A DNA stretch of 55,155 bases from a virus. The stretch's first letter is position 1; the number at the start of each line of letters is the position of its first letter. Below, in pieces: positions 6,811 to 38,097 of the stretch. The translations under genes and the position numbers were made by a program. The notes beneath the pieces are model-generated. The model did no database searches, was not told the DNA's origin, and saw only the letters and a list, made by a program, of their open reading frames with translations. Location: positions 1 to 55,155 of the IMG/VR virus record IMGVR_UViG_3300050343_000224; one strand, 5' to 3'.

Positions 6811-7506
6811 ATGGCTGACATCAAAATTACTGATCTGGCTGCTTACACAGATCCGGTCAGCACTGACGTGTTGCCGATTGTTGATGTTGGCAGTGATCTG
6901 ACCAAAAAAGTCAGCATTGCGGATCTGCTGAAGAATGCTCTGCTCGTTGACAGCAATGGCGACGTAGAGATCGGAGGGGGAAATACTCAGCTGAATGCTG
7001 ATGGCGAAGCTCTGTTCTCTGGCCCCGTATCAATCGGCGGCACTGCTTCTGCTAACACGATTGATGAATACGAGGAAGGTAATTGGACGCCAGGAATCAG
7101 TGCGCAAAGTGGTTCGTTTACGGCTTTGAATGTAGAAGTTATTGCAGCTACATACACAAAGATTGGCAGAATTGTTACTGTTGCATGTTTTATACGCACT
7201 GATGCATACGACCCAACTGGAACCTCTGGAAGATTAGTAATTACGGGACTTCCTTTTAATCATCGCAGTGAAGTCGGTCGCACTATAGGGACACCCCTTC
7301 TGCTGGAATACAACAGTGAATCAACATACAGTGGCACCTTTGCGGCTTTTACGGCTTCTTCAGCATCTAATCAAGTTTACTTTGTAAAAGTTGACGAAGG
7401 AACTAATTCTGGTGCGGTTACTTATTTGCAGACGAGTCAACTACAGACGCATTCCGTTACGAACCGTAACTGGTTCCAATTTGCTCTCACCTATATGACA
7501 GTTTGA
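6811..7506 (+). CDS. Tail fibre / receptor-binding protein, 231 aa
   Basis: The N-terminal 60 residues (MADIKITDLAAYTDPVSTDV with VLPIVDVG) are a short adaptor common in phage fibre proteins of aquatic phages. Residues about 85-95 contain YEEGNWTPG, the signature that opens the C-terminal receptor-binding beta-sandwich of many phage fibres. The remainder is Thr/Ser/Tyr rich and ends in ALTYMTV, a typical hydrophobic trimer-end strand. It is downstream of the main fibre and upstream of other surface proteins, so a host-recognition accessory fibre is the best reading. Confidence 0.75.
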   Translation: MADIKITDLAAYTDPVSTDVLPIVDVGSDLTKKVSIADLLKNALLVDSNGDVEIGGGNTQLNADGEALFSGPVSIGGTASANTIDEYEEGNWTPGISAQSGSFTALNVEVIAATYTKIGRIVTVACFIRTDAYDPTGTSGRLVITGLPFNHRSEVGRTIGTPLLLEYNSESTYSGTFAAFTASSASNQVYFVKVDEGTNSGAVTYLQTSQLQTHSVTNRNWFQFALTYMTV

Positions 7507-7571
7507 TCAGCAGCAGCCCGTAACGGCTCAAAACTACGACCTAAACCTGTTTTGTCTGGAGGACAATCCTA

Positions 7572-7817
7572 ATGGCCTTTACTGAACGTCAAGAATACAG
7601 GATGGAAATCATCCCGCCTTACAACATCATCCAATGCCGTCGTGCTGACATCGTTGAAAAAGATGGTGTAGAAGTTGGTCGCACCTACCATCGTCATGTA
7701 CGAGTGCCTGGTGATGATGTGCGTGAAGATTGCGCTGAACTGCAAGCGATTGCGGTCACATTGTGGACACAGGAAGTAATTGATGCGTATCAAGCGTCAC
7801 TCACGCCTGATGAGTAG
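7572..7817 (+). CDS. Conserved-looking small phage protein, 81 aa
   Basis: A strong GGAGGA ribosome site lies in the loop of a small hairpin (TTGTC and GACAA arms) just before the ATG. The product is 81 residues with RQEYRMEIIPPYNIIQCRRA at the N-terminus and a basic/acidic mix after it. No signal peptide or membrane segment is seen. Proteins of this look accompany fibre genes in marine phages, but I cannot name a family. A structural or fibre-assembly role is inferred from location only. Confidence 0.7.
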   Translation: MAFTERQEYRMEIIPPYNIIQCRRADIVEKDGVEVGRTYHRHVRVPGDDVREDCAELQAIAVTLWTQEVIDAYQASLTPDE

Positions 7818-7854
7818 CATTGCCAGTTAATTTTCTCCAAAAAAAAAATAAGTC

Positions 7855-7875
7855 GGCGCATTAGGCGGATGCGCC
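7855..7875. other. Hairpin GGCGCA/TGCGCC beside A-tract
   Basis: Arms GGCGCA (7855-7860) and TGCGCC (7870-7875) can pair across nine bases. A run of nine A lies five bases to the left, so on the minus strand it would resemble a weak terminator, though no minus-strand gene is present here. Confidence 0.3.
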
Positions 7876-7952
7876 GTGCTATCCGTCGTGAAGAGCGGCG
7901 GCTCGGGAGGAAGCGTAAACGGCTGTTGGCGCGTAAGGTCAGGAGGTTGTAG
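7869..7952 (+). CDS. Candidate Arg-rich micropeptide, 27 aa
   Basis: A 27-residue frame runs from ATG at 7869 to TAG at 7950-7952. More than half of the residues are Arg or Lys (MRRAIRREERRLGRKRKRL, then LARKVRRL). The start sits inside the preceding hairpin and AGGCGG abuts it, which is too close for a good ribosome site. It could be a tiny nucleic-acid-binding peptide or chance coding in GC-rich sequence. The 200-base gap around it otherwise holds only a promoter-like pair. Confidence 0.3.
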   Translation: MRRAIRREERRLGRKRKRLLARKVRRL

Positions 7953-7963
7953 TTATTTACCTT

Positions 7964-7993
7964 TTGCCACAGTCGACCATCCTGCGCTAGAAT
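7964..7993 (+). promoter_or_regulatory. Possible sigma70-type promoter
   Basis: TTGCCA (7964-7969) and TAGAAT (7988-7993) are separated by 18 bases, and the next gene starts 26 bases downstream. This is a reasonable but not perfect match to the consensus. Confidence 0.4.
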
Positions 7994-8019
7994 TCATATA
8001 GCAGATCTTTTGCAGTGAA

Positions 8020-8349
8020 ATGATTGGCTTGACAAGCGGTTTTGAAGTTCACCAATTCGGCGATCTAACATCTACAGGGGTAAGTGACTCTGTTGAAACC
8101 GCAGGTACAAACCTACTGTTTCAGGTTACCACTGCAAATGTGGGAACAAGTGTAGTTTTCAGGCTAGAGGGGAGTCTCGACAATGTTAACTTCTTCAATT
8201 TGGATGATGACGAGCAAGATATAGTTTCAACCGTTGACAACACAACTGGATACGCTTTAAATGGTTGTCCAATTAAATTTGCCAGGGTTCGACTGGTAAG
8301 TATCAGCGGAGGAACTCCTACAGTTGCGTCCAAACTAGGCTCTGCATAA
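8020..8349 (+). CDS. Small beta-rich virion protein, 109 aa
   Basis: The product has a beta-sandwich pattern with VVFRLEGSLDNVNFFNLDDD in the middle. The same arrangement, a hydrophobic strand followed by EGSLxGTxWFxL, occurs in the protein at 43596-43919 next to the head genes, so the two look like distant relatives. Such domains decorate capsids or tails. The TAA stop overlaps the next ATG (TAATG). The gene is 26 bases downstream of a promoter-like pair. Confidence 0.7.
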   Translation: MIGLTSGFEVHQFGDLTSTGVSDSVETAGTNLLFQVTTANVGTSVVFRLEGSLDNVNFFNLDDDEQDIVSTVDNTTGYALNGCPIKFARVRLVSISGGTPTVASKLGSA

Positions 8350-9167
8350 TGGCAAAAAACCTGCGGAACAGCATTGCCACCAGCCTCAATATTGGGCTGC
8401 GCCAAAGCTTGACTAGCGGTCTAGTCGAAACTTGGACGCCTGCTCTACTCAGTGGTTTGCAGTTATGGCTAGATGCCGACGATGCGTCAACAATCACAGA
8501 AAGCAGCGGCAGCGTAAGTCAATGGGATGACAAGAGCGGCAATGGTAACGATGCAGTTCAAGGAACCGGAATAAGCAGGCCAAACTACGGATCTCAAACT
8601 ATTAACTCAAAGAATGTTGTAAATTTTTCCGGTGGTAAATTTATGACTACAGGTTATCCACCTGCGCTAAATAGAACCATTGCCATGGTTGTTCAATACA
8701 GCAGTTTAGCTCAATTAAGGGTCGCAATGGGTGCTAGGGAATCAGTCGACGAAAGATCATACTTTGGGATTAATCAGGGTCGCGTAAGAGCTGGTGTTGC
8801 CAACTTATCCTCGCTAAACGGAACTGGCGGTATCGCAACCTATACAACATACACTCAAATCTTAAAACACGGTCAAGGAGCAGTAAATAGAGAGGTCCAT
8901 CATTATCTTGATGGGACAGAGGATATTGACCAAACCTTCACGGGAGACATTGGCAGCGGTCAGAATTACATGATCGGGGGGTTCAACGACCGAGGTGGAG
9001 TTCATAATCAACAATACAGCGGTCTAATGGGTGAGATGATAATTACAGGCAACATGCTGGGCGATTCAGATCGTCAAAAACTTGAGGGTTATCTGGCTCA
9101 TAAATGGGGGCACACAGCAAGTCTTCCTGCTGACCACCCGTATAAAAGCTCGACTCCTATAGCTTGA
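8349..9167 (+). CDS. Concanavalin A-like lectin (LamG-type) protein, 272 aa
   Basis: Residues about 35-70 contain LSGLQLWLDADDASTI and WDDKSGNGNDA, the entry motif of LamG-like jelly-roll domains. The C-terminus carries RQKLEGYLAHKWG followed by LPADHPY, a tail found on many such aquatic phage and bacterial lectin proteins. The fold binds carbohydrate, so the protein probably helps attach the virion to cell-surface glycans. It is in the fibre gene cluster, consistent with this. No signal peptide is seen. Confidence 0.8.
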   Translation: MAKNLRNSIATSLNIGLRQSLTSGLVETWTPALLSGLQLWLDADDASTITESSGSVSQWDDKSGNGNDAVQGTGISRPNYGSQTINSKNVVNFSGGKFMTTGYPPALNRTIAMVVQYSSLAQLRVAMGARESVDERSYFGINQGRVRAGVANLSSLNGTGGIATYTTYTQILKHGQGAVNREVHHYLDGTEDIDQTFTGDIGSGQNYMIGGFNDRGGVHNQQYSGLMGEMIITGNMLGDSDRQKLEGYLAHKWGHTASLPADHPYKSSTPIA

Positions 9168-14773: not shown

Positions 14774-15543
14774 TCGTTTTCCTCTTGGGTGTTAATTGGA
14801 GCTTCTTTGATTAGCTGTAGCAGAGTGTTGCGTTGACGGAGACGGACTGCGGCGTCGGCGGCGTCGGCGGCGTCGTCGGCGGCGTCGGCGGCGAAGGCAG
14901 CGGCGGCGTCGGCGGCGAAGGCAGCGGCGGCGTCGGCGACGTCGGCGGCGAAGGTGGCGGCGTCGGCGGCGCGGGCGGCGGAGGAGAAGGCGGCGGCTTC
15001 GGCGGCGGCGAAGGCGGCGTCGGCGGCGAAGGCGAAGGCGGCGGCGAAGGCGGCGAAGGCGAAGGCGTCGGCGGCGCGGGCGGCGCGGGCGGCGGACCGG
15101 GCAGCGGCGGCGGCGCGGGCGGCGGACCGGGCAGCGGCAACTGCTTCAGACCACTCTTTGCCATCTGCCAGTAAATCCATCCCTTCAATGACTGAGTCAA
15201 TACAGGCTTGAATATCATCAGGGACGGGCGGCAACGCTCGCAGTTCTGCAGCTAGGGATTGCCAGCTAACTCGCGTTAAATCTTTACCGTCAGAGCCAAC
15301 AGCTTCAGGCAGCGCAGCGAAGAAATCCGCCGCTTCATTAGAACAAAGCCCCTCAAAAATGGATTCAGCGATGAGGGTGACTATCAACGGGATACCATAT
15401 TCGGTCTCAATAAATCCAGGGTTGTTTGTACCGTTGGCGAGGCAACCTATGAAACAGGTTTTGTAGCTACCTTGAGCAACGCGATCAGCTGCTACGTGAG
15501 CTGCTACTTCGGCTTTGAGTTTTTGAAAGTTTTTAGTAAGCAT
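14770..15543 (-). CDS. Ala-rich helical repeat protein, 257 aa
   Basis: ATG at 15543 has a GGAG ribosome site eight bases upstream and is preferred over an upstream TTG-type start. Residues 1-130 form a normal globular domain (KLKAEVAAHVAADRVAQG, then CFIGCLANGTNN and an acidic helix). Residues about 133-240 are a run of Ala with Arg, Asp, Phe and Ser at intervals, expected to be one very long helix, followed by a normal C-terminus. N-terminal domains like this coupled to Ala-rich tails occur in phages and cyanobacteria, function unknown to me. The gene is in the early minus operon directly before a 56-aa gene and thyX. Confidence 0.75.
   Translation of the reverse strand: MLTKNFQKLKAEVAAHVAADRVAQGSYKTCFIGCLANGTNNPGFIETEYGIPLIVTLIAESIFEGLCSNEAADFFAALPEAVGSDGKDLTRVSWQSLAAELRALPPVPDDIQACIDSVIEGMDLLADGKEWSEAVAAARSAARAAAAARSAARAARAADAFAFAAFAAAFAFAADAAFAAAEAAAFSSAARAADAATFAADVADAAAAFAADAAAAFAADAADDAADAADAAVRLRQRNTLLQLIKEAPINTQEENE
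14860..15140 (-). repeat. GCN-codon low-complexity tract
   Basis: This tract is an irregular triplet repeat dominated by GCC/GAC codons on the minus strand (GGC/GTC on the plus strand), coding the Ala-rich helix. The other frames give Gly-rich and Pro-rich artefactual reading frames. Unit lengths vary, suggesting expansion and slippage. Confidence 0.8.
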
Positions 15544-22056: not shown

Positions 22057-23448
22057 TCAGAAATGGCGCGATGCCATTATTTTCTTCGCCCATGGTACTG
22101 GGTATTTGTAGCCTCGACTTTTGCCTAGCTCAATCAGTTGCTCCAGCGTTTTAGCTCTACCCTGCTCCGCACGCTTGGCAATATGGGCTTTCTGCTTTTG
22201 TAGTCTCTCCAATGCAGCCGCCTGTCTTGAATCAATCTCACCCAATTCACCATCAACCTCAGCTGGTCCACCACGAGTCGGAGCCGGATACCGATACCCG
22301 CATTCAGGGCAAACCGGCGCTGGAACATGAGCACAGAAACAAGCAGGACACTGCCTGACGGGAGGTGCCTGTTCCCCACGCCTCTTCCGGCCCTCCAGGC
22401 TCCATTGCCGTTCCATTTCCGGGGGACCATGCTCGAAAATCGAACCGGCATGATCTAAAACCGTCAAATGCTTCTTGCCACTAACCGGCGACGTTCGCAG
22501 TCCACGGCCTACGGACTGAAGAAAAAATGTCAAACTCTTTGTCGGGCGAAGCAAAATAATGCACTCGATCTGCGGCACATCAACACCGGCCACCCACAGC
22601 TGGGCATTGCATACAACCTGCAAACTGCCGTCCCTAAGGCCAGTCAAGGCCGCGACTCTCTCTGATCGTTTGCTCTTGCCTGAAATTGCCACTGCCTTGT
22701 AACCCTGAGCCTGGAACTCAGCAGCAACATGCTCGGCATGGCTAATCGACGTGCAAAATGCCACCGCTCTTTTGCCATTGCAATGCTTCTGATAATGCTT
22801 GATCACGTCACCCGTGATGGTCGAACGGTCCATCTCACCATCGATGTCCGACTGCCTGTAGTCACCGGCTTGCATCCTTAGCCCGGTCAGGTCCGGGCGA
22901 TGCGGCGCGAAATACTTGATCGGGGCCAAAAGCCCCTCTTGGATTAATGCGTTAGTGCTGCACGTTGGCACGATCTCATCAAAGATCTCACCCAATCCCT
23001 TACCGTCCAGCCTGCATGGAGTGCCGGTCAGCCCCAGCAGCGGTGGGTTGCCAATCTTGCCCATCACCTTGAGGTAAGTCGTCGCCACCGCCAAGTGACA
23101 CTCATCCACAATCACAAGGTCAGGTGGCGGGAACCCATCACGCCTCGCAGCAGTTTGAACGCTCACGACCTGAACCCGGCGGTGATACTCCATTGGCTTG
23201 CCAGCAGCAATCTCGCCAAAAGGAATCTTCACCGAACGCAGCCGGTTGGCCGTGTCATCCAAAATCTCCCTCAGATGAGCAAGGAACCAGACAGTTTTGC
23301 CCTTATCGAGCGCAGACTGGATAATCGCTGCACTGGTATGGGTCTTGCCAAAACCAGTGGCAGCACAAAGAATCGGTGCCCGATATCCAGACCGGTACGC
23401 AACCCTGATGTCATTTATCGCCTGAGTTTGGCGGGGGCGGAGGGTCAT
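22057..23448 (-). CDS. SF2 DEAD/DEAH-type helicase, 463 aa
   Basis: Motifs in order are ATGFGKTHT (Walker A, residues 30-38), VIVDECH (Walker B, 112-118), GLTGTP (motif III), AVAFCTSISHAEHVA (IV), then VAGVDVP (V) and QSVGRGLR (VI). The C-terminal region has a zinc ribbon CPACFCAHV/CPECGYRYP. It is a probable DNA-unwinding helicase of the phage UvsW/RecG-like early type. ATGA overlap links it to the HTH gene upstream; the VRR nuclease follows at once. Length is standard for the group. Confidence 0.88.
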   Translation of the reverse strand: MTLRPRQTQAINDIRVAYRSGYRAPILCAATGFGKTHTSAAIIQSALDKGKTVWFLAHLREILDDTANRLRSVKIPFGEIAAGKPMEYHRRVQVVSVQTAARRDGFPPPDLVIVDECHLAVATTYLKVMGKIGNPPLLGLTGTPCRLDGKGLGEIFDEIVPTCSTNALIQEGLLAPIKYFAPHRPDLTGLRMQAGDYRQSDIDGEMDRSTITGDVIKHYQKHCNGKRAVAFCTSISHAEHVAAEFQAQGYKAVAISGKSKRSERVAALTGLRDGSLQVVCNAQLWVAGVDVPQIECIILLRPTKSLTFFLQSVGRGLRTSPVSGKKHLTVLDHAGSIFEHGPPEMERQWSLEGRKRRGEQAPPVRQCPACFCAHVPAPVCPECGYRYPAPTRGGPAEVDGELGEIDSRQAAALERLQKQKAHIAKRAEQGRAKTLEQLIELGKSRGYKYPVPWAKKIMASRHF

Positions 23449-24284
23449 GCCTCGTCCCTATCAAGTTGCAACAGGCGCAGCGATTCAGTGGCAAACTTTC
23501 TGACCGACTCCGCTTCGCGAGCAACTTCTTCCAATGTCTCCCTGATACTAGGATTGCCATCCTTGGCCAACTGTCTTTCAGCTGCCATTACGTCTTGATA
23601 AACGATACCTCGCCCGAAGCGAAACTCCTTTGACGCTGCTGTCATTGTTTTCTCTAACGGAATTTGGATTTCTTTCAATGCCGCTACAATCTTCAGCCGA
23701 TCTTTGCTGCTTTTGCTTTCACGTTTAACAAGAGCTTTCATGTGATCGTTGAGTTCGCCTGTTGGCGTAACTTGAATGTCCTCTCTAAGAGTTGAGTGTC
23801 CCGAACTTGGGACACTTGTCGTTGGCTCCGGTGTTGGAGTCGTTTCAGGAGCACTGGGGGTCAGTGCTGGCTCAGGTGCTGACGTAGGCTCTACCTGAAC
23901 TTCAGCTCCTTTCCTGCGTTTGATTTCCTTGGTGATTGTTTCGCGGTTGCGACCCGTTTTCTTGTGAATGGCGTTGGTGGTCAATCCTTCTTGAGTGTGC
24001 AGCCTCCACCATTCCTGCCGCTCTTCATCTGTCGGCTTTTTTCGGGAGGGCTCGGATCCTTGAGTTGTATGGTTCGCCATTTGGCGAACGTCATCAGCTG
24101 GTTTCAGCTTGCGGCGCAACGACGTTTCAGCAACGCCAAACCGCTTGGCTGCACCCAATACGCTGATGTTTCCAGTCTGAACCGCAGCGATAGCATTTTC
24201 CATTGATTGTTCTTCAGATGTTCTGCTTGCGAGCATTTCAACAAGTTTGCAGTCGTCTCCGCATTTAGGCTCTTCGCTGTTCAT
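23445..24284 (-). CDS. DNA-binding protein with two HTH segments, 279 aa
   Basis: Residues about 28-60 form a psq-like HTH (AIAAVQTGNISVLGAAKRFG, then VAETSLRRKL) and about 100-130 a second HTH-like segment (WWRLHTQEGLTTNAIHKKTG). A Pro/Thr/Ser-rich linker and a C-terminal helical region with acidic residues follow. It probably regulates early transcription or binds an origin. It sits directly behind a terminator, so it is likely first in a separate or read-through transcript. It is the best candidate regulator in the genome. Confidence 0.72.
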   Translation of the reverse strand: MNSEEPKCGDDCKLVEMLASRTSEEQSMENAIAAVQTGNISVLGAAKRFGVAETSLRRKLKPADDVRQMANHTTQGSEPSRKKPTDEERQEWWRLHTQEGLTTNAIHKKTGRNRETITKEIKRRKGAEVQVEPTSAPEPALTPSAPETTPTPEPTTSVPSSGHSTLREDIQVTPTGELNDHMKALVKRESKSSKDRLKIVAALKEIQIPLEKTMTAASKEFRFGRGIVYQDVMAAERQLAKDGNPSIRETLEEVAREAESVRKFATESLRLLQLDRDEA

Positions 24285-29657: not shown

Positions 29658-30407
29658 ATGCCATCTATTGCTTCGCTAAGAAAACAGGTCAAGCAAGCCG
29701 ATGACGCTTACAGGTCTGGCAATGCAGTTATGAGTGACCAAGATTTTGACCATTTGGCTGCCGAGTTGCGAGCTGTTGCACCATTTGCTCCTGAACTGAC
29801 GCTTCCCGGAGGGGGATCTGCGCTTTTGAGCTTGAACAATGGGGACAGCGAGGAGCTGGACCACTGGCTTTCGATGAGCGGCGCTCAGGAGCCGCTGTGC
29901 GTGTCCGAGAAGGTTGACGGGTGTGCAATAGCCATTCAGTACGTGGAGGGCCGCTTGCAGGCCGCTTGGACGCGATCTGGCGCTGACGCGACTGCTCTCG
30001 TATCGCGAGTCGCTCCCGCGACTCTTTCGCAACCTCTCTCTATCGAGGTTCGGGGTGAGCTTTATGACTCAGTAACTGGCAAGCAAAGCGTCCCGGCTCA
30101 GGCTCTTCGCAGGCCAAACCACACTGGCGACGGTCTGGGCTTTATCGCTTACACGCTTATGGATGCTGATGGTGATGAGTTCTTGACGCTTGAGCGTTTA
30201 GCAGCTCTTGGATTCGACACCGTGTCAGCCGTTTGCTGCACTACTGTCGCTGACGTGATTGCTTGTCATCGGCAGTGGAAGGCTGGCTGCTTTGGCCGGT
30301 CGGAGCTACCTACTGATGGCATCGTGATCCGAATCGCGGATCATGCTGCACAACAAGCTTTGGGATCTAGTAGCAAAGCGCCTAACTATGCTTTTGCTAT
30401 GAAGTGA
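29658..30407 (+). CDS. NAD-dependent DNA ligase adenylation domain only, 249 aa
   Basis: The product has a trimmed Ia-like N-terminus (ADDAYRSGNAVMSDQDFDHL) and a full nucleotidyltransferase core: SEKVDGCAI with the adenylated Lys85, LQAAWTRSGAD, IEVRGELYD, and finally APNYAFAMK where it stops. Bacterial LigA continues with OB, zinc, helix-hairpin and BRCT domains; all are missing. The frame ends where LigA would enter the OB fold. It might need a partner for the missing domains, repair special nicks or transfer AMP to something else. The next genes do not look like ligase parts. Confidence 0.82.
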   Translation: MPSIASLRKQVKQADDAYRSGNAVMSDQDFDHLAAELRAVAPFAPELTLPGGGSALLSLNNGDSEELDHWLSMSGAQEPLCVSEKVDGCAIAIQYVEGRLQAAWTRSGADATALVSRVAPATLSQPLSIEVRGELYDSVTGKQSVPAQALRRPNHTGDGLGFIAYTLMDADGDEFLTLERLAALGFDTVSAVCCTTVADVIACHRQWKAGCFGRSELPTDGIVIRIADHAAQQALGSSSKAPNYAFAMK

Positions 30408-32704: not shown

Positions 32705-33048
32705 TAGTTAGTGAGGTTCACCGCCCCGCTGAGTTAGTGAGGTTCACCGCGTTGAGTTAGTGAGGTTCACCGCTGAGTTAGTGAGGTTCACCGCCCCGCT
32801 GAGTTAGTGAGGTTCACCGCGCTGAGTTAGTGAGGTTCCCGCTGAGTTAGTGAGGTTCACCGCCCCGCTGAGTTAGTGAGGTTCACCGCCCCGCTGAGTT
32901 AGTGAGGTTCACCGCCCCGCTGAGTTAGTGAGGTTCACCGCCCCGCTGAGTTAGTGAGGTTCACCGCCCCGCTGAGTTAGTGAGGTTCACCGCCCCGCTG
33001 AGTTAGTGAGGTTCACCGCCCCGCTGAGTTAGTGAGGTTCACCGCCCG
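32705..33048. repeat. Tandem array of 14 units, 26 bp each with shorter variants
   Basis: The unit starts GAGTTAGTGAGGTTCACC and ends GCCCCGCT. Eight final units from 32844 to 33046 are spaced exactly 26 bases; earlier units of 20-23 bases are truncated variants at the GC-rich end. There are no unique spacers, so it is not CRISPR. Stops in all frames exclude coding. Iteron-like binding or recombination-prone growth are candidate explanations. Confidence 0.85.
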
Positions 33049-33049
33049 A

Positions 33050-33070
33050 CCCATAGGCTGAGCCTATGGG
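33050..33070. promoter_or_regulatory. Perfect inverted repeat CCCATAGGCT/AGCCTATGGG
   Basis: Ten-base arms with one central base lie immediately after the tandem array and 160 bases before the first gene of the GAG/CTC block. The leader that follows holds further hairpins such as GAGAGG-GGCT-CCTCTC (near 33192-33207) and ACCGAT/ATCGGT, so the mRNA leader may be strongly structured. Confidence 0.55.
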
Positions 33071-33231
33071 CGAGAGCCTGAGGGGCTCCTGATAAGGCTA
33101 TCTGTTTATGAATGGCTGATTCTCCATTAACCGATCAGCTCTCTTTATCGGTCTGGCCATCCTCTCTTTTTATAAGGCAGACTCTGAAGCGTGAGAGGGG
33201 CTCCTCTCGCTTCTAACATTGCTTCCATTCG

Positions 33232-33978
33232 ATGACAAATTTTTCTATTGCTCTCTCTCAGTTTCTCTCCTCCTTTGAGAGGAGCTCTCGCGATTCAGGC
33301 TCTGAGTTCTGGAAGCTCTCCTCAGACTCTCCTGAGTGGATGACTGATGCATTGATGGCAGCTCACGATGGAGAGCTTCCAAACGATTCTAGGTATGAAC
33401 TGATTAGAGATTGTCTCCAGGCTCTCTCGGATGATGTAGTGGAGAGTCTGGAGGAGGCTCTTGAAGCCAGTCTGGAGCTCTCCCTTGAGCTCGTTCCAAC
33501 TTTCACGGGTGATCTCATCGACTGGTTTTCTCAGATGCCCCGAAGACTGGGAGACTGTGATGAGGCTCTAGATCAAGGGAGAGTCTCCGAGTTGACTGGT
33601 TACGAAGTCCTTTCGGAAGGCTTCAGAGTTGCCGCTGAAGAGGTGATCTCCTCTTTAGCTGATTCTCTGGAGGATGCTGCGGATTCTCTTTTTGATTCAG
33701 ACAATGATTGTGAGCTCCTCCTCTCTGACTCCCATGGGATCTACATCCCGAAAATATGGGCCGATGAGCTCTCAGAGGAGGAGGCAGAGAATTTTAGTGT
33801 TAGCTGGGAGAGCACTCTCCTCTGCCAGGCTGGGCCCGATGAGGAGCAATACTGGGAGGCATGGCAGGAGATCCTGGACTCTGCCCAGTGGGAGGAGGAC
33901 GGTGTTGAATGGAGGCTCCATCAAAATGGCGATCTCTGGAGAGTCAGAGTTGACGCTCAACTCCCTGAGGGCTTTTGA
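33232..33978 (+). CDS. Acidic Ser/Leu/Glu-rich protein of the GAG/CTC block, 248 aa
   Basis: The product is highly acidic. The C-terminal 90 residues look conserved: GIYIPKIWADELSEEEA, then QAGPDEEQYWEAWQEILDSA and WRLHQNGDLWRVRV. I recall similar domains in uncharacterised phage proteins. Codon use differs sharply from the rest of the genome: GAG far exceeds GAA and AGA/AGG exceed CGN. AGAG and CTCT words crowd both strands. No enzyme motif or membrane segment is seen. It starts after a structured leader and shares the block with two further genes. Confidence 0.72.
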   Translation: MTNFSIALSQFLSSFERSSRDSGSEFWKLSSDSPEWMTDALMAAHDGELPNDSRYELIRDCLQALSDDVVESLEEALEASLELSLELVPTFTGDLIDWFSQMPRRLGDCDEALDQGRVSELTGYEVLSEGFRVAAEEVISSLADSLEDAADSLFDSDNDCELLLSDSHGIYIPKIWADELSEEEAENFSVSWESTLLCQAGPDEEQYWEAWQEILDSAQWEEDGVEWRLHQNGDLWRVRVDAQLPEGF

Positions 33979-33979
33979 G

Positions 33980-34228
33980 ATGAGGCTCTCTATCTCTGAG
34001 GAGGAGGCTCTCTGCCTCCTCTGGAGCCTAGAGGAGGCTCTCCTCATCTCAGAGCCTGAGGAGGAGGAGCTTATCTCCTCCCTTGTCTCCAGGCTTTCAG
34101 TCTCTCTCTCTGGATTCTCGACAGCTTCAGAGCTGAGGGCTTACAGGTTCCAGAGGCCGCTCCTCCCTGGAGAGCCTCTGCCTCCTCTGCCTCTCTATTC
34201 TCACAACCTCTATTCTTTAAATTCATGA
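33980..34228 (+). CDS. Small acidic protein of the GAG/CTC block, 82 aa
   Basis: ATG at 33980 follows the previous stop by one base. The product begins MRLSISEEEALCLLWSLEEA and has a Pro-rich tail (FQRPLLPGEPLPPLPLY). GAG and CTC codons dominate as in the neighbours. Its stop overlaps the next ATG. Short proteins of this pattern occur in cyanophages. Function unknown. A longer in-frame extension into the previous gene is rejected because it is out of frame overlap. Confidence 0.65.
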   Translation: MRLSISEEEALCLLWSLEEALLISEPEEEELISSLVSRLSVSLSGFSTASELRAYRFQRPLLPGEPLPPLPLYSHNLYSLNS

Positions 34229-35055
34229 ACTTTTTAGATTCTCGCCTTCATGTCAACGTCCAAGCTCTCTCCGAGCTCTCTGGAGAATTTTATTTTTATG
34301 AACCTTCCAGGGAGATTGTCAGGAGTGGCTCTCTCTCTTCGCCCATAGAGTGGAGGCATCCATGCCCTAATGAGGCAGATTCTCTCAGTTTTGGAGGGCT
34401 CTCTACTTACTCTCTGGAGCTCTGTAGAGAGCTGGGATCCTCTCTCTCTAAGGCTTCTCCTGAGGAAGCGGCAGAGCTCCTTTGTCAACGTAAGCTCTGG
34501 AGGCATTGCTCTCTAGTTTGGATCTCTTCGCATTGTCAGGGAGGAGACTATGCAGGAGGTACTCACAACGTCAGCAATGCCAGAGTCCTGATCGATCAAT
34601 TCTCATCTCCAGAGCTTCGGGAGATAGGGGGAGGCTATGGGGCTCTAGGAGTCGTGATTGATCCTCGGTATCTGTCTGACGATCTTTTAGAGAGCCTCCA
34701 GAGCCTGGAGGGCTATCCGGTTTTGGATGAGGATGACCTTTCTCATTATGAAATAGAGCTCCAATCTGAAGCCTGGGAGAGCTGGGCCGAGAGAGAGTTT
34801 AGGTGCGCAATGGAGAATCGACTCTCTGAGATCTCCTCAGAGGATCAGGCAGAGAGAGCTGCTGAGGCAATCTCGTCGGAGCCTCTTTTTGAGATCTTTT
34901 GTCAGGCTCTGGAGGTTGGCAACCTTTATTGGAGCCACGAGTGTGCTACCTCTGCCTGGATTGACTGTAAGGAGGTGGCTTCAGAGATCCCTGATGAGAG
35001 TCTGAGAGATCTCCTCCCTGTAGGCTCTGCCATTCAGGCTCCTCTGCCTCTCTGA
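34225..35055 (+). CDS. Protein of the GAG/CTC block, 276 aa
   Basis: The start is ATG 34225, overlapping the previous stop. The sequence begins MNFLDSRLHVNVQALSELSG and includes GGTHNVSNARVLIDQFSSPE plus IGGGYGALGVVIDPRYLSDD, segments that I associate with hypothetical phage proteins. GAG/CTC bias continues to its end. Charged helices dominate the C-terminal half. No catalytic motif is certain. Terminator-like hairpins follow 40-110 bases after its stop. Confidence 0.7.
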   Translation: MNFLDSRLHVNVQALSELSGEFYFYEPSREIVRSGSLSSPIEWRHPCPNEADSLSFGGLSTYSLELCRELGSSLSKASPEEAAELLCQRKLWRHCSLVWISSHCQGGDYAGGTHNVSNARVLIDQFSSPELREIGGGYGALGVVIDPRYLSDDLLESLQSLEGYPVLDEDDLSHYEIELQSEAWESWAEREFRCAMENRLSEISSEDQAERAAEAISSEPLFEIFCQALEVGNLYWSHECATSAWIDCKEVASEIPDESLRDLLPVGSAIQAPLPL

Positions 35056-35098
35056 GAGTCTCTCCCATAAATTCAGAGCCTCCCCAGAGAGGCATTAT

Positions 35099-35146: not shown

Positions 35147-35168
35147 GCCCCGTATGGGGCTTTTTTTT
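35147..35168 (+). terminator. Intrinsic terminator
   Basis: GCCCC-GTAT-GGGGC (35147-35160) followed by eight T is a textbook terminator. It closes the GAG/CTC block transcript right before the second repeat array. Confidence 0.88.
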
Positions 35169-35420
35169 CGCCCTGGCGGCTGATCGCCCTGGCGGCTGAT
35201 CGCCCTGGCGGCTGATCGCCTTGGCGCCGATCGCCCTGGCGGCTGATCGCCCTGGCGCCGATCGCCCTGGCGCCGATCGCCCTGGCGCCGATCGCCCTGG
35301 CGCCGATCGCCCTGGCGCCGATCGCCCTGGCGCCGATCGCCCTGGCGGCTGATCGCCCTGGCGGCTGATCGCCCTGGCGCCGATCGCCCTGGCGCCGATC
35401 GCCCTGGCGCCGATCGCCTT
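35169..35420. repeat. Tandem array of 16 units, 15-16 bp, with near-HIP1 sequence
   Basis: Two unit types alternate: CGCCCTGGCGGCTGAT (16 bp, six copies) and CGCCCTGGCGCCGAT (15 bp, ten copies including one with a single base change). Junctions create TGATCGCC or CGATCGCC, one base from the cyanobacterial HIP1 palindrome GCGATCGC. The short type also contains GGCGCC. The array ends in a partial unit. It has no spacers and is not coding. Confidence 0.88.
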
Positions 35421-35693
35421 AAAATATATCGTAAAATCCTATTCTTAAGTTGATGCGCTACTTTTTCTAGTCTATTAATCGTAGCAAAATATTATTGACA
35501 ATAGCAGTCTGCTAAAAAAATATTTCAATAAAAAAAGTCAAGGTATTCGGATCGCACCATAAAAGTAGGCAATACGTTATAAGGTTGTTTCGATAATGCA
35601 AGACACACCTCGCCCAGTAACCGAAATAGCGAAATCGGATATTTTATCATTTTTATTCTTATCGCGCTATCTTCGTATTATCGTATTTGAATC
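35421..35693. other. AT-rich region between repeat array and terminase genes (expected cos/packaging site)
   Basis: These 273 bases are rich in A and T and have no gene. They contain TTGACA at 35495-35500 without a good -10, the dyad TAGCAG-T-CTGCTA at 35502-35514, and several AATATT words. Because the terminase pair is lambda-like, a cos site with TerS-binding repeats is expected just before terS. The array next to it is the obvious candidate for repeats, but no overhang sequence can be identified from sequence alone. Confidence 0.4.
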
Positions 35694-36251
35694 ATGGCTC
35701 TCATTAGCAGGTCCGAAGCCGCACGCGCATTGGGCGTATCGCCTGAAGCTGTCTACGCAGCAGTAAAAAGCGGAAGATTATCGGTCAAGAAAGACGCATA
35801 TGGCAAGCCTGTTGTGGATAGCGAAACAATGCGAGAGGAATGGGCCAAAAACACGCAGACGAGAATCGGTATCGGCCCTAAAGCCGCCGGGCAAGGTAAA
35901 GAAAAGAAGCCTTTGCGCAGTCGCGAGGAGAGGATGGCTTCAGGATCGGAGCAGCCAAGGATCAGCAAGACCCAGGAGTCGATCCCTGACTATGACGAAT
36001 CTCGCGCTCGAACGGAGCATTTAAAAGCAGAGCTGCTCGAACTTGATCGACAGCAAAAAGAGGGACTCTTGGTCAAAGCAGAAGACATTGCGCTTGAGTG
36101 GTCAGAAATTATCACTCGCGCAAGAACGAAGCTATTAGGGATACCAACCAAGGCGAAACAACGAATACCAGACTTAGATACAGACGCTATTGGTGTTTTG
36201 GATGATATTGTGCGCGAAGCCTTAGAAGATTTAGCTGGTGACAGCGAATAA
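35694..36251 (+). CDS. terS: Terminase small subunit (Nu1-like), 185 aa
   Basis: The N-terminus SRSEAARALGVSPEAVYAAV is a MerR/Nu1-type winged-HTH, followed by KDAYGKPVVDSETMREEWAK. The middle is basic and disordered; the C-terminal half is a helical oligomerisation region (TEHLKAELLELDRQQKEG). This subunit recognises the packaging site and loads the large subunit. Its end overlaps the large-subunit start by 14 bases. The AT-rich, repeat-flanked region upstream is the likely target. Confidence 0.82.
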   Translation: MALISRSEAARALGVSPEAVYAAVKSGRLSVKKDAYGKPVVDSETMREEWAKNTQTRIGIGPKAAGQGKEKKPLRSREERMASGSEQPRISKTQESIPDYDESRARTEHLKAELLELDRQQKEGLLVKAEDIALEWSEIITRARTKLLGIPTKAKQRIPDLDTDAIGVLDDIVREALEDLAGDSE

Positions 36252-38097
36252 CGTAGAGAAACTAAGAAAGTCAGCCGCTTTAGCGTTTAAACCGCCAAAG
36301 AAGATGACTTTAAGCGAGTGGGCGGACTCTTATGCCTACTTAAGTGCAGAATCGAGCGCAGAAGGCGGAAGATGGCACACGCTGCCTTACCAGAAGGGGA
36401 TAATGGATGCGATCACGAATCCCAAGATCGAGCAGATCAGCGTGATGAAAAGTGCCCGTGTCGGGTACAGCAAAATTCTTAATCACGTCGCGGCCTTTCA
36501 TATTCATCAGGATCCGTGCCCGATCATGATTGTGCAGCCCACCATTGAGGATGCACAGGGCTATTCAAAGGAAGAGATCGCGCCAATGTTGCGTGACACG
36601 CCTTGCCTCAAGGGTGTAGTGAGCGAGGCCAAGTCAAAAGACGGAGCCAACACGATCCTGCAGAAGCAGTTTCCTGGCGGGAGCCTGAGTCTGGTGGGCG
36701 CTAACAGTCCGCGTGGCTTCAGGCGGGTCAGTAGGCGAGTGGTGCTATTTGATGAGGTTGATGGTTATCCACCTTCAGCTGGGACCGAGGGCGACCAGAT
36801 CAAGCTTGGGATTAGGCGTACTGAGTATTACTGGAACAGAAAGATCGTGGCGGGGTCAACGCCAACGGTTAAGGACTTCAGCCGTGTCGAGCGAATGTTT
36901 CTGCAGGGTGATCAGAGGCGTTATTTCGTGCCGTGCCCTGATTGCGGTCATATGCAGTATCTGAAATGGGCAAATATGAAGTGGCACGACAATGATCCAG
37001 ATACAGCCAGTTACTGTTGCGAAAGCTGTGGCGTATGGATCCCGGCAGCGAAGAAGCGTTGGATGGTTGAACGCGGTGAGTGGCGGCCCACCGCGCCTGG
37101 CAATGGTAAACATGTTTCGTTTCATATTTGGGCGGCGTATAGCTATAGCCCCAATGCGAGCTGGTCAACGCTGGTTGAGGAGTTTCTTGATGCGAAAAAC
37201 GACGCAGAGCAGCTGAAGACATTCGTGAACACTGTTCTGGGCGAGACGTGGGAAGACGAGTATGCGTCGAAGGTTAATGCCGACGGTCTCAGCGAACGTT
37301 CAGCTGATGAAAAGTACAAGCAGGGCGTTGTGCCTGCAGAGGCATTGTTGCTCACTGTTGGCTGTGATACGCAGGACACCTGGCTCTCACTCAGTGTCTG
37401 GGGATGGGGCCGCGAAGAGCAGGGGTGGTTGATCGACAGGGTGAAAATTTACGGCGACCCGTCGCGGAAAGACGTGTGGAAGCAGTTGGACGAGATTGTG
37501 CAGACGCCTTACAAGTCTGAGGATGGTCGTGAGTTGAAGCCAATAGTGGTAGCCATTGATAGCGGCGGCCACCACACCAGTGAGGTTTATCAGTACGCAA
37601 GAGAGCGTCAGAGCTTGGGCGTCGTTGCGATCAAGGGCATGTCAACCAAGAACAAGCCGCCAATTGGCAAGGCAAGCAAGGTTGACCTGAACTCGCAGGG
37701 TAAAACGCTCAAGAAAGGCGCTCAGGTCTTCCCTGTTGGATCGGACACGATCAAGTCACTTTTGTTCGGCAGGCTGAAGCACAACGATGTCGGCCCAGGG
37801 TATTTGCATTTTTATCCAACAGTCGAGAAAGATTATTTTGAAGAATTGACGGCAGAAAAGCAGATCCTTAAGTACAAGAATGGGTTCCCTGTGAGGGTTT
37901 GGGTCAAAAGCAGCAGTGCAAGAAACGAGGCGTTGGACGAGCTTGTCTACGCTTACGCGGCATTAAATCGTGTGTATCAAATCAAAGACCGCAGGACGTT
38001 ATGGGATCAGATGGAAAGAACACCTGAAGAACGGAAAGAGTCTAAGCGTGCAGTTTCGGCTAAGCGAACTCAGAGAAGTTTTGTTAATCAGTGGTAA
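36238..38097 (+). CDS. terL: Terminase large subunit (GpA family), 619 aa
   Basis: ATPase motifs are VMKSARVGYSKI (Walker A variant, residues 69-80), VVLFDEVDG (Walker B, 168-176) and AGSTPT (coupling motif). A zinc finger CPDCGHM/CCESCG follows. Nuclease residues lie in VGCDTQDTWLS, VVAIDSGGHHT and NEALDELVYAYAA. It cuts and translocates the genome into proheads. The start is GTG 36238 overlapping terS. Length and motif order are standard for lambda gpA-type enzymes, which implies packaging from cos-type ends. Confidence 0.95.
   Translation: MTANNVEKLRKSAALAFKPPKKMTLSEWADSYAYLSAESSAEGGRWHTLPYQKGIMDAITNPKIEQISVMKSARVGYSKILNHVAAFHIHQDPCPIMIVQPTIEDAQGYSKEEIAPMLRDTPCLKGVVSEAKSKDGANTILQKQFPGGSLSLVGANSPRGFRRVSRRVVLFDEVDGYPPSAGTEGDQIKLGIRRTEYYWNRKIVAGSTPTVKDFSRVERMFLQGDQRRYFVPCPDCGHMQYLKWANMKWHDNDPDTASYCCESCGVWIPAAKKRWMVERGEWRPTAPGNGKHVSFHIWAAYSYSPNASWSTLVEEFLDAKNDAEQLKTFVNTVLGETWEDEYASKVNADGLSERSADEKYKQGVVPAEALLLTVGCDTQDTWLSLSVWGWGREEQGWLIDRVKIYGDPSRKDVWKQLDEIVQTPYKSEDGRELKPIVVAIDSGGHHTSEVYQYARERQSLGVVAIKGMSTKNKPPIGKASKVDLNSQGKTLKKGAQVFPVGSDTIKSLLFGRLKHNDVGPGYLHFYPTVEKDYFEELTAEKQILKYKNGFPVRVWVKSSSARNEALDELVYAYAALNRVYQIKDRRTLWDQMERTPEERKESKRAVSAKRTQRSFVNQW

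Follow-up and report, generated by a model that had tools for sequence, protein, structure and literature searches.

The GAG/CTC-saturated cassette and its setting

The window, the whole stretch of 55,155 nucleotides that we analysed, is a 55-kb viral record in which a three-gene block saturated with GAG and CTC lies ahead of a GpA-type large terminase gene, the latter serving as a context marker outside the block (Table 1). The three genes, g1, g2 and g3, are co-directional and follow an untranslated leader that opens with an inverted repeat, CCCATAGGCTGAGCCTATGGG, read from the sequence at about 33050–33070. The bias starts where the upstream tandem array ends and stops short of the terminator-like hairpin at 35147, whose assignment as a terminator rests on its position, because such sites in the region are not above chance number. 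An earlier, sequence-only reading of this DNA had described a three-gene block; the block is real, but its second gene starts at 33980, inside a longer, mechanically called ORF (33674–34228).

Table 1. Features in and around the GAG/CTC-saturated cassette of the window.
Feature	Position	Strand	Basis
Upstream tandem array, 26-bp unit AGTTAGTGAGGTTCACCGCCCCGCTG, 13.8 copies	32706–33047		Tandem Repeats Finder
GAG/CTC-saturated cassette, whole biased segment	33060–35089		maximum-scoring segment with the upstream array excluded; word counts
Untranslated leader, 93 words per kb	33060–33231	+	word counts
g1, 248 aa	33232–33978	+	C-terminal part matches phrog_21544 (E 2.5e-12, residues 159–245, 87 residues)
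g2, 82 aa	33980–34228	+	similar short gene in most cassettes
g3, 276 aa	34225–35055	+	matches phrog_3906 (E 3.9e-8, residues 142–215, 74 residues)
Terminator-like hairpin, GCCCCGTATGGGGC then TTTTTTTT	35147–35170	+	pattern scan; just past the biased segment
Downstream tandem array, 15-bp unit TCGCCCTGGCGCCGA, 16.3 copies	35168–35418		Tandem Repeats Finder
Predicted cos end AAGGTATTCGGAT, boundary of right and left virion genome ends	35542–35554		contig starts of relatives
Large terminase, GpA type	36238–38097	+	PF05876 (E 2.5e-84), PF20454 (E 2.6e-94)

The families matched by g1 and g3 have no assigned function, and both matches are of partial coverage. The AlphaFold models of g1 and g3 have mean pLDDT values of 91 and 87, respectively; structure searches found no PDB relative for either protein and, for g1, matched uncharacterised viral proteins only. 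Both proteins are acidic and almost free of lysine, which makes them poor DNA binders and weak candidates for a factor that binds the words. PADLOC, which lists defence and not anti-defence proteins, gave no match to the cassette genes; no anti-defence match was found for them, and Rfam returned a chance-level match only.

Among cultured phages, the terminase closest to that of the window belongs to the freshwater Synechococcus phage S-LBS1 (45% identity), so the window's phage likely infects cyanobacteria. About 30 terminase-related contigs all begin at one homologous base, about 680–705 bp ahead of the terminase gene, and one of them that runs from cos to cos, G014, has AAGGTATTCGGATC as its first letters and GAAGGTATTCTGA as its last, as cos ends would give. 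The homologous base corresponds to about 35542 in the window, so the genome would read left end, terminase, rest, array, cassette, array and right end. By this order, the cassette lies at the right end of the linear genome, next to the predicted cos site, a location that holds for the window's phage group only. In a second phage group, ribonucleotide reductase genes follow downstream of the GAG cassettes, which indicates that the end position is not essential. A role in packaging, one of the functions suggested by the sequence-only reading, is possible in the window's group, given the closeness of its cassette to cos; the location in the second group limits this reading.

Lambda is generally held to release its right end from the capsid first. 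Since a lambda-type right end is usually taken to enter the host first, the cassette end would by analogy enter first as well, and the cassette genes may act early. A recent in-vitro study questions right-end-first exit in lambda (PMC10287942).

The bias is in DNA words and not in codon choice alone

GAG and CTC together reach 125 per kb in 33060–35089 versus 26 per kb elsewhere in the window. The sequence-only reading had reported that the stretch 33090–35095 is crowded on both strands with AGAG, CTCT, GGAG and CTCC, that Glu is mostly GAG and that Arg is mostly AGA or AGG. This observation is correct and understates the case. Specifically, GAG and CTC occur at 58.8 and 68.3 per kb in that stretch versus 14.1 and 12.3 per kb in the rest, and AGAG, CTCT, GGAG and CTCC are enriched 5.7-, 12.3-, 7.3- and 6.3-fold. 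GAG encodes 86% of Glu in the block versus 48% outside it, 38% in the primase and 64% in the terminase; AGA and AGG encode 77% of Arg versus 29% outside, and CTC encodes 50% of Leu versus 11% outside. Among 3,433 windows of 1.5 kb taken from all the sequence compared, the most extreme are word-saturated cassettes of this kind. A second, ordinary compositional outlier of the window is a GGC-rich, low-complexity coding repeat at 14837–15138, with units of 9 to 33 bp.

Shuffling each gene among its own synonymous codons, a check that the sequence-only reading had proposed, fails to explain the excess. The words number 88 in g1 and 102 in g3, whereas own-codon shuffling yields 69.5 ± 3.6 and 76.0 ± 3.7, and the phage's usual codons would yield 34.5 and 38.6. 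The sum of AGAG, CTCT, GGAG and CTCC falls from 68 to 40 ± 4 in g1 and from 83 to 46 ± 4 in g3. For the short g2, the excess (45 words versus 42.7 ± 1.7 shuffled) is not significant in the window, but is significant in most relatives. Outside the cassette, GAG and CTC are at the level of codon shuffles (z −0.7). A test for depletion of GAG words in the remaining genome found none (AGAG/CTCT ratio 1.0).

The third base of a codon tracks the first base of the next codon so as to form GAG or CTC. Gly is encoded by GGA in 59% of cases before G and in 8% before T, and Ala by GCT in 86% of cases before C and in 21% before T. On the coding strand of nine cassettes, codon junctions form GAG 277 times versus 139 expected (z 18.9) and CTC 962 times versus 579 expected (z 28); both words are in excess on the one strand, which shows that the effect is truly strand-symmetric. 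Furthermore, the leader and intergenic DNA are about as word-dense as coding DNA in most cassettes, and the density drops at the borders. Codon usage as the sole cause is ruled out by the own-codon shuffles and the next-base context test; together with the bias on both strands and in untranslated DNA, this bears out the proposal of the sequence-only reading that the bias acts on nucleic-acid words.

GAG cassettes in other phages

Protein searches identified about a dozen other viral contigs carrying g1, g3 or both, at 33–59% identity to the proteins of the window; g1 as a single-protein query found nothing, and the relatives were reached by alignment queries. All these GAG cassettes are biased and sharp-bordered. 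They occur in relatives of the window and in phages without its terminase, several of the latter records being fragments, and thus stand in different backbones and at two genomic positions. Additional genes present in only some of them are likewise biased. The bias is retained even though protein identity has fallen to about 50% and the synonymous sites are near saturation.

All close relatives identified thus show the bias together with the proteins, a point that the sequence-only reading had proposed to check. Distant members of phrog_21544 and phrog_3906, the families to which parts of g1 and g3 match, are, by contrast, of ordinary composition, as in the Tunturi_5 homologue and L022–L038. 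These unbiased homologues also lack the rest of the cassette, and their ordinary composition indicates that the bias is a property of the cassette rather than of the protein family. A short protein matching the adenylation domain of NAD-dependent DNA ligase is encoded at 29658–30407 of the window and at 2113–2835 of L002, and an ORF resembling it precedes the GAG cassette of G001, a phage contig without the window's terminase.

Cassettes of other dialects

Close relatives of the window hold other cassettes at this locus, saturated with other word sets, or dialects: AAG/CTT, GCG/CGC or GGG/CCC. Specifically, the 3.8 kb downstream of the cassette are 97% identical between L113 and L116, and the two have the upstream array in common, but L116 carries a GAG cassette and L113 an AAG/CTT cassette. 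GCG/CGC cassettes are found in L108, L119 and L127, and L140, whose backbone and arrays are those of the window at 83–87% identity, has a GGG/CCC cassette; the AAG and GGG dialects are represented by one cassette each. GGC/GCC is probably a further dialect, judging by composition and modest shuffle scores. At the GP88 loci of L146, L149 and L150, ATC/GAT (z about 6) and CGA/TCG exceed codon shuffles, possibly a weak further dialect.

Gene content differs between cassettes too. The AAG/CTT cassette of L113 encodes, at 7077–8447, a protein matching a DNA polymerase processivity factor, or sliding clamp (phrog_947, E 3.8e-9), along with a g2-like ORF read by eye. Members of the GP88 protein family are encoded in the GCG, GGG and probably GGC dialects, and also in DNA of weak or no dialect.

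A dialect's own word fills 51–74% of the synonymous sites that allow it, and most words of the other dialects fall below background at the sites permitting them. GAG, for instance, takes up 4% of its permitting sites in the AAG cassette, and 5–7% in GCG cassettes, versus 20–27% in outside genes. The exception is AAG, which in GCG and GGG cassettes stays near the background of outside genes.

An array similar to the upstream array of the window is retained in relatives bearing other cassettes, and L140 has the same kind of array as the downstream one in the same place. On these sequence relations, the block is an exchangeable cassette, one allele of an accessory-gene locus. In the window's group, cassettes are likely swapped as units between the flanking tandem arrays, with the upstream array as the likely joint for the exchange.

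Word density is kept while word positions turn over

In the more diverged pairs, third bases at conserved residues match at frequencies of, for example, 0.56, 0.51 and 0.48, versus 0.54, 0.45 and 0.35 by context-matched chance. The match is little to moderately above chance, which indicates that word positions turn over and density stays. In closer pairs, with each pair counted in both directions here and in the comparison that follows, 0.081 of four-fold sites differ inside words versus 0.253 outside words, about threefold less. In the single pair with a matched control, the values in the cassette are 0.109 at word sites and 0.276 at other sites, a significant difference, and those in genes outside the cassette are 0.169 and 0.218, which is not significant; nor do word sites in the cassette differ significantly from those in outside genes when the two rates are compared directly (p 0.13). 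The overall divergence of the cassette and the clustering of its changes are ordinary, like those of the rest of the genome. Slower word sites at ordinary overall divergence speak more for purifying selection on words in double-stranded DNA than for codon choice, RNA structure, gene transfer or a hotspot of mutation, and suggest that selection maintains the word saturation of the alleles.

Slower word sites are also expected from context-biased mutation or repair, which counts against the reading by selection. Biased mutation or repair could make and keep the words, as has been proposed for the HIP words of cyanobacteria, or template switching could spread common words. Such a process would account, without any reader, for the arbitrariness of the words, the strand symmetry, the exclusivity of the dialects and the bias in non-coding DNA, and it has a precedent in the cyanobacterial HIP dialects with their model of methylation-directed mismatch repair (PMC4390886). 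In addition, 8–10-mers shared within the cassette are in slight excess, and the nearby tandem arrays show repeat-generating processes at work close by. However, divergence and substitution clustering are genome-like, the protein alignments have few gaps, and near-identical phages carry different words. Furthermore, the sharp borders and the persistence of one word across two genomic positions and different backbones require that the mutational process be intrinsic to the cassette. Local templated copying, considered on its own, has weak support; clustered substitutions match those outside. We consider a mutational or repair origin unlikely, and infer selection, rather than biased mutation or repair, as the cause.

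Restriction sites and vocabulary

Six-base palindromes number 95–100 per 2 kb in GCG cassettes versus 22.5 outside, a fourfold excess, and in most GAG cassettes they are about as frequent as outside. GAGCTC occurs 105 times in the GAG cassettes, above codon expectation, but elsewhere in the same phages 4 times versus 42 expected; in the window outside 33060–35089 it is missing from 52 kb, versus about 12 expected from a Markov model. Restriction-site minimisation is accordingly not supported as the cause, and the restriction evasion suggested by the sequence-only reading is a weak explanation.

Relative to expectation, GAGCTC is depleted about tenfold outside the cassettes of the window, G001, G004, G005, G014 and G018, and CTCGAG, CGGCCG, CCGCGG and TTCGAA are likewise depleted in several of these phages. 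The GAGCTC deficit is part of a general avoidance of palindromes, present also in phages with other dialects. The idea that a phage purges the palindrome of its own dialect outside the cassette fails for AAGCTT and GCGCGC.

Two palindromes are missing from the cassettes themselves. GAG cassettes contain no CTCGAG where about 55 would be expected, and GCG cassettes no CCGCGG where 20 would be; both are avoided elsewhere too. Their lack indicates that the cassettes feel site-specific pressure. Strong dialects also hold 684–860 distinct 6-mers per 2 kb, versus 1135 ± 41 outside. This reduction goes beyond the effect of the core word and points to a small set of words rather than a single one.

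The missing sites and the low number of 6-mers would both be expected if the vocabulary were compressed so that the DNA exposed first offers few k-mers, and hence few targets, to host defences, each dialect being a different bet. The palindromes are not reduced, however, and lie far above the outside level in GCG cassettes; GAG cassettes are rich in a site that their phages avoid elsewhere; and site avoidance in the remaining genome involves no dialect. This explanation is in our judgement rather improbable, and it ranks below a mutational origin.

Transcript-level selection and transfer

Selection on the transcript, through mRNA structure, stability or translation, would suit a biased segment that spans roughly from leader to terminator-like hairpin, like a transcription unit, and some cassettes do fold slightly better than their codon-shuffled versions. 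Their folding is not clearly above that of outside genes, which leads us to reject RNA structure as the cause, and in most sets it equals that of trinucleotide-preserving shuffles. In addition, the word and its complement are both enriched in one strand, and in L127 and L140 the words also occur upstream of predicted promoter-like TATAAA/TATATA boxes. We regard this reading as highly improbable.

The transferred module proposed by the sequence-only reading holds as an exchangeable unit, but recent transfer with the donor's composition still showing has next to no likelihood: the block stands out from its surroundings as foreign and is found in unrelated backbones, but no relative, and thus no chromosomal or plasmid source, was found among 84,980 bacterial and archaeal species genomes (searched with short peptide patterns, which reach fairly close relatives only) or in plasmids, blastn of a cassette against cultured phages gave no match, the GP88 family appears in several dialects, and the bias has outlasted the turnover of synonymous sites, so that transfer alone cannot explain it.

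A proposed density-read identity mark

Of the readings considered, we prefer one in which the cassette is an exchangeable allele, selection acts on word density, and the density is read as an identity mark; we advance it tentatively, at somewhat less than an even chance. Selection acting directly on the words would keep one word set, here GAG/CTC, dense in the double-stranded DNA of the cassette, whether coding or not and on either strand, with little regard to where exactly each word lies, and other alleles would use AAG/CTT, GCG/CGC, GGG/CCC and probably GGC/GCC in the same manner. The words would act jointly, with a postulated word-preferring DNA-binding factor of host or phage loading along the cassette, and the dialects would stay apart so that one factor avoids loading on the cassette of another. 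We place modest confidence in a density-read mark bound by such a factor. The shrinkage of vocabulary beyond the core word is not predicted by a reader of a single word and counts against this part of the proposal, and the ordinary use of AAG in GCG and GGG cassettes counts against strict exclusion between dialects.

Across entire genes, the word set determines how codons end and probably also which amino acids are used. Words that are allele-specific, conserved in density and little conserved in position are unlike the usual causes of compositional bias. If they are selected, they would constitute a new information layer superimposed on coding DNA and served by a putative reader; if they are mutational, they would reveal a strong local word-creating process. 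Both readings are testable, because one gene family spans several dialects and near-identical phages differ in the cassette.

Comparison with known systems

In the open-access literature, we found no description of allele-specific word saturation confined to an exchangeable cassette, and no precedent at such a scale. A cyanobacterial-phage locus with mutually exclusive trinucleotide dialects under selection, forming a density-coded identity signal for a postulated factor, is a claim we still rate as doubtful. The nearest known analogue is HIP1 (GCGATCGC) with its alternates, the HIP words that form dialects in the genomes of cyanobacteria; their cause is debated, and an origin driven by repair has been proposed (PMC4390886). 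Both involve short, strand-symmetric words far above chance that differ between lineages. HIP words, however, are mostly GC-rich palindromes, occur about once per kb throughout bacterial genomes and are tied to known methyltransferases. The cassette words GAG/CTC, AAG/CTT, GCG/CGC and GGG/CCC are non-palindromic trinucleotides, occur about once per 8 bp, are confined to a viral cassette of 2–3 kb and vary between alleles of one locus.

DNA uptake sequences exist as species dialects, which is a further likeness. Those of Neisseriaceae and Pasteurellaceae are also short words enriched in coding DNA and read by a protein (PMC1939737), but they comprise 9–12 bases, run through the genome, have a known orientation and role, and define no cassette, whereas the core of the cassette bias is a local trinucleotide.

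The cassette resembles the anti-defence islands in the leading regions of conjugative plasmids, described as variable accessory genes at the end thought to enter a new host first, in its gene variability and, in the window's group only, in its location at a genome end; word saturation is not known to be a feature of those islands (PMC11541004). Prokaryotic viruses are also known to avoid restriction sites (PMC6286503), and the phages studied here likewise shun many palindromes, CTCGAG in GAG cassettes included; avoidance, however, removes single sites, whereas the word set of a cassette is positively enriched, even for the otherwise avoided GAGCTC.

A protein encoded on the minus strand of the window at 23445–24284 has a Pfam HTH_psq match (E 2.4e-6), a generic helix-turn-helix. 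Eukaryotic Psq domains bind GAGAG, and the agreement with the GAG words is so far a mere coincidence of names.
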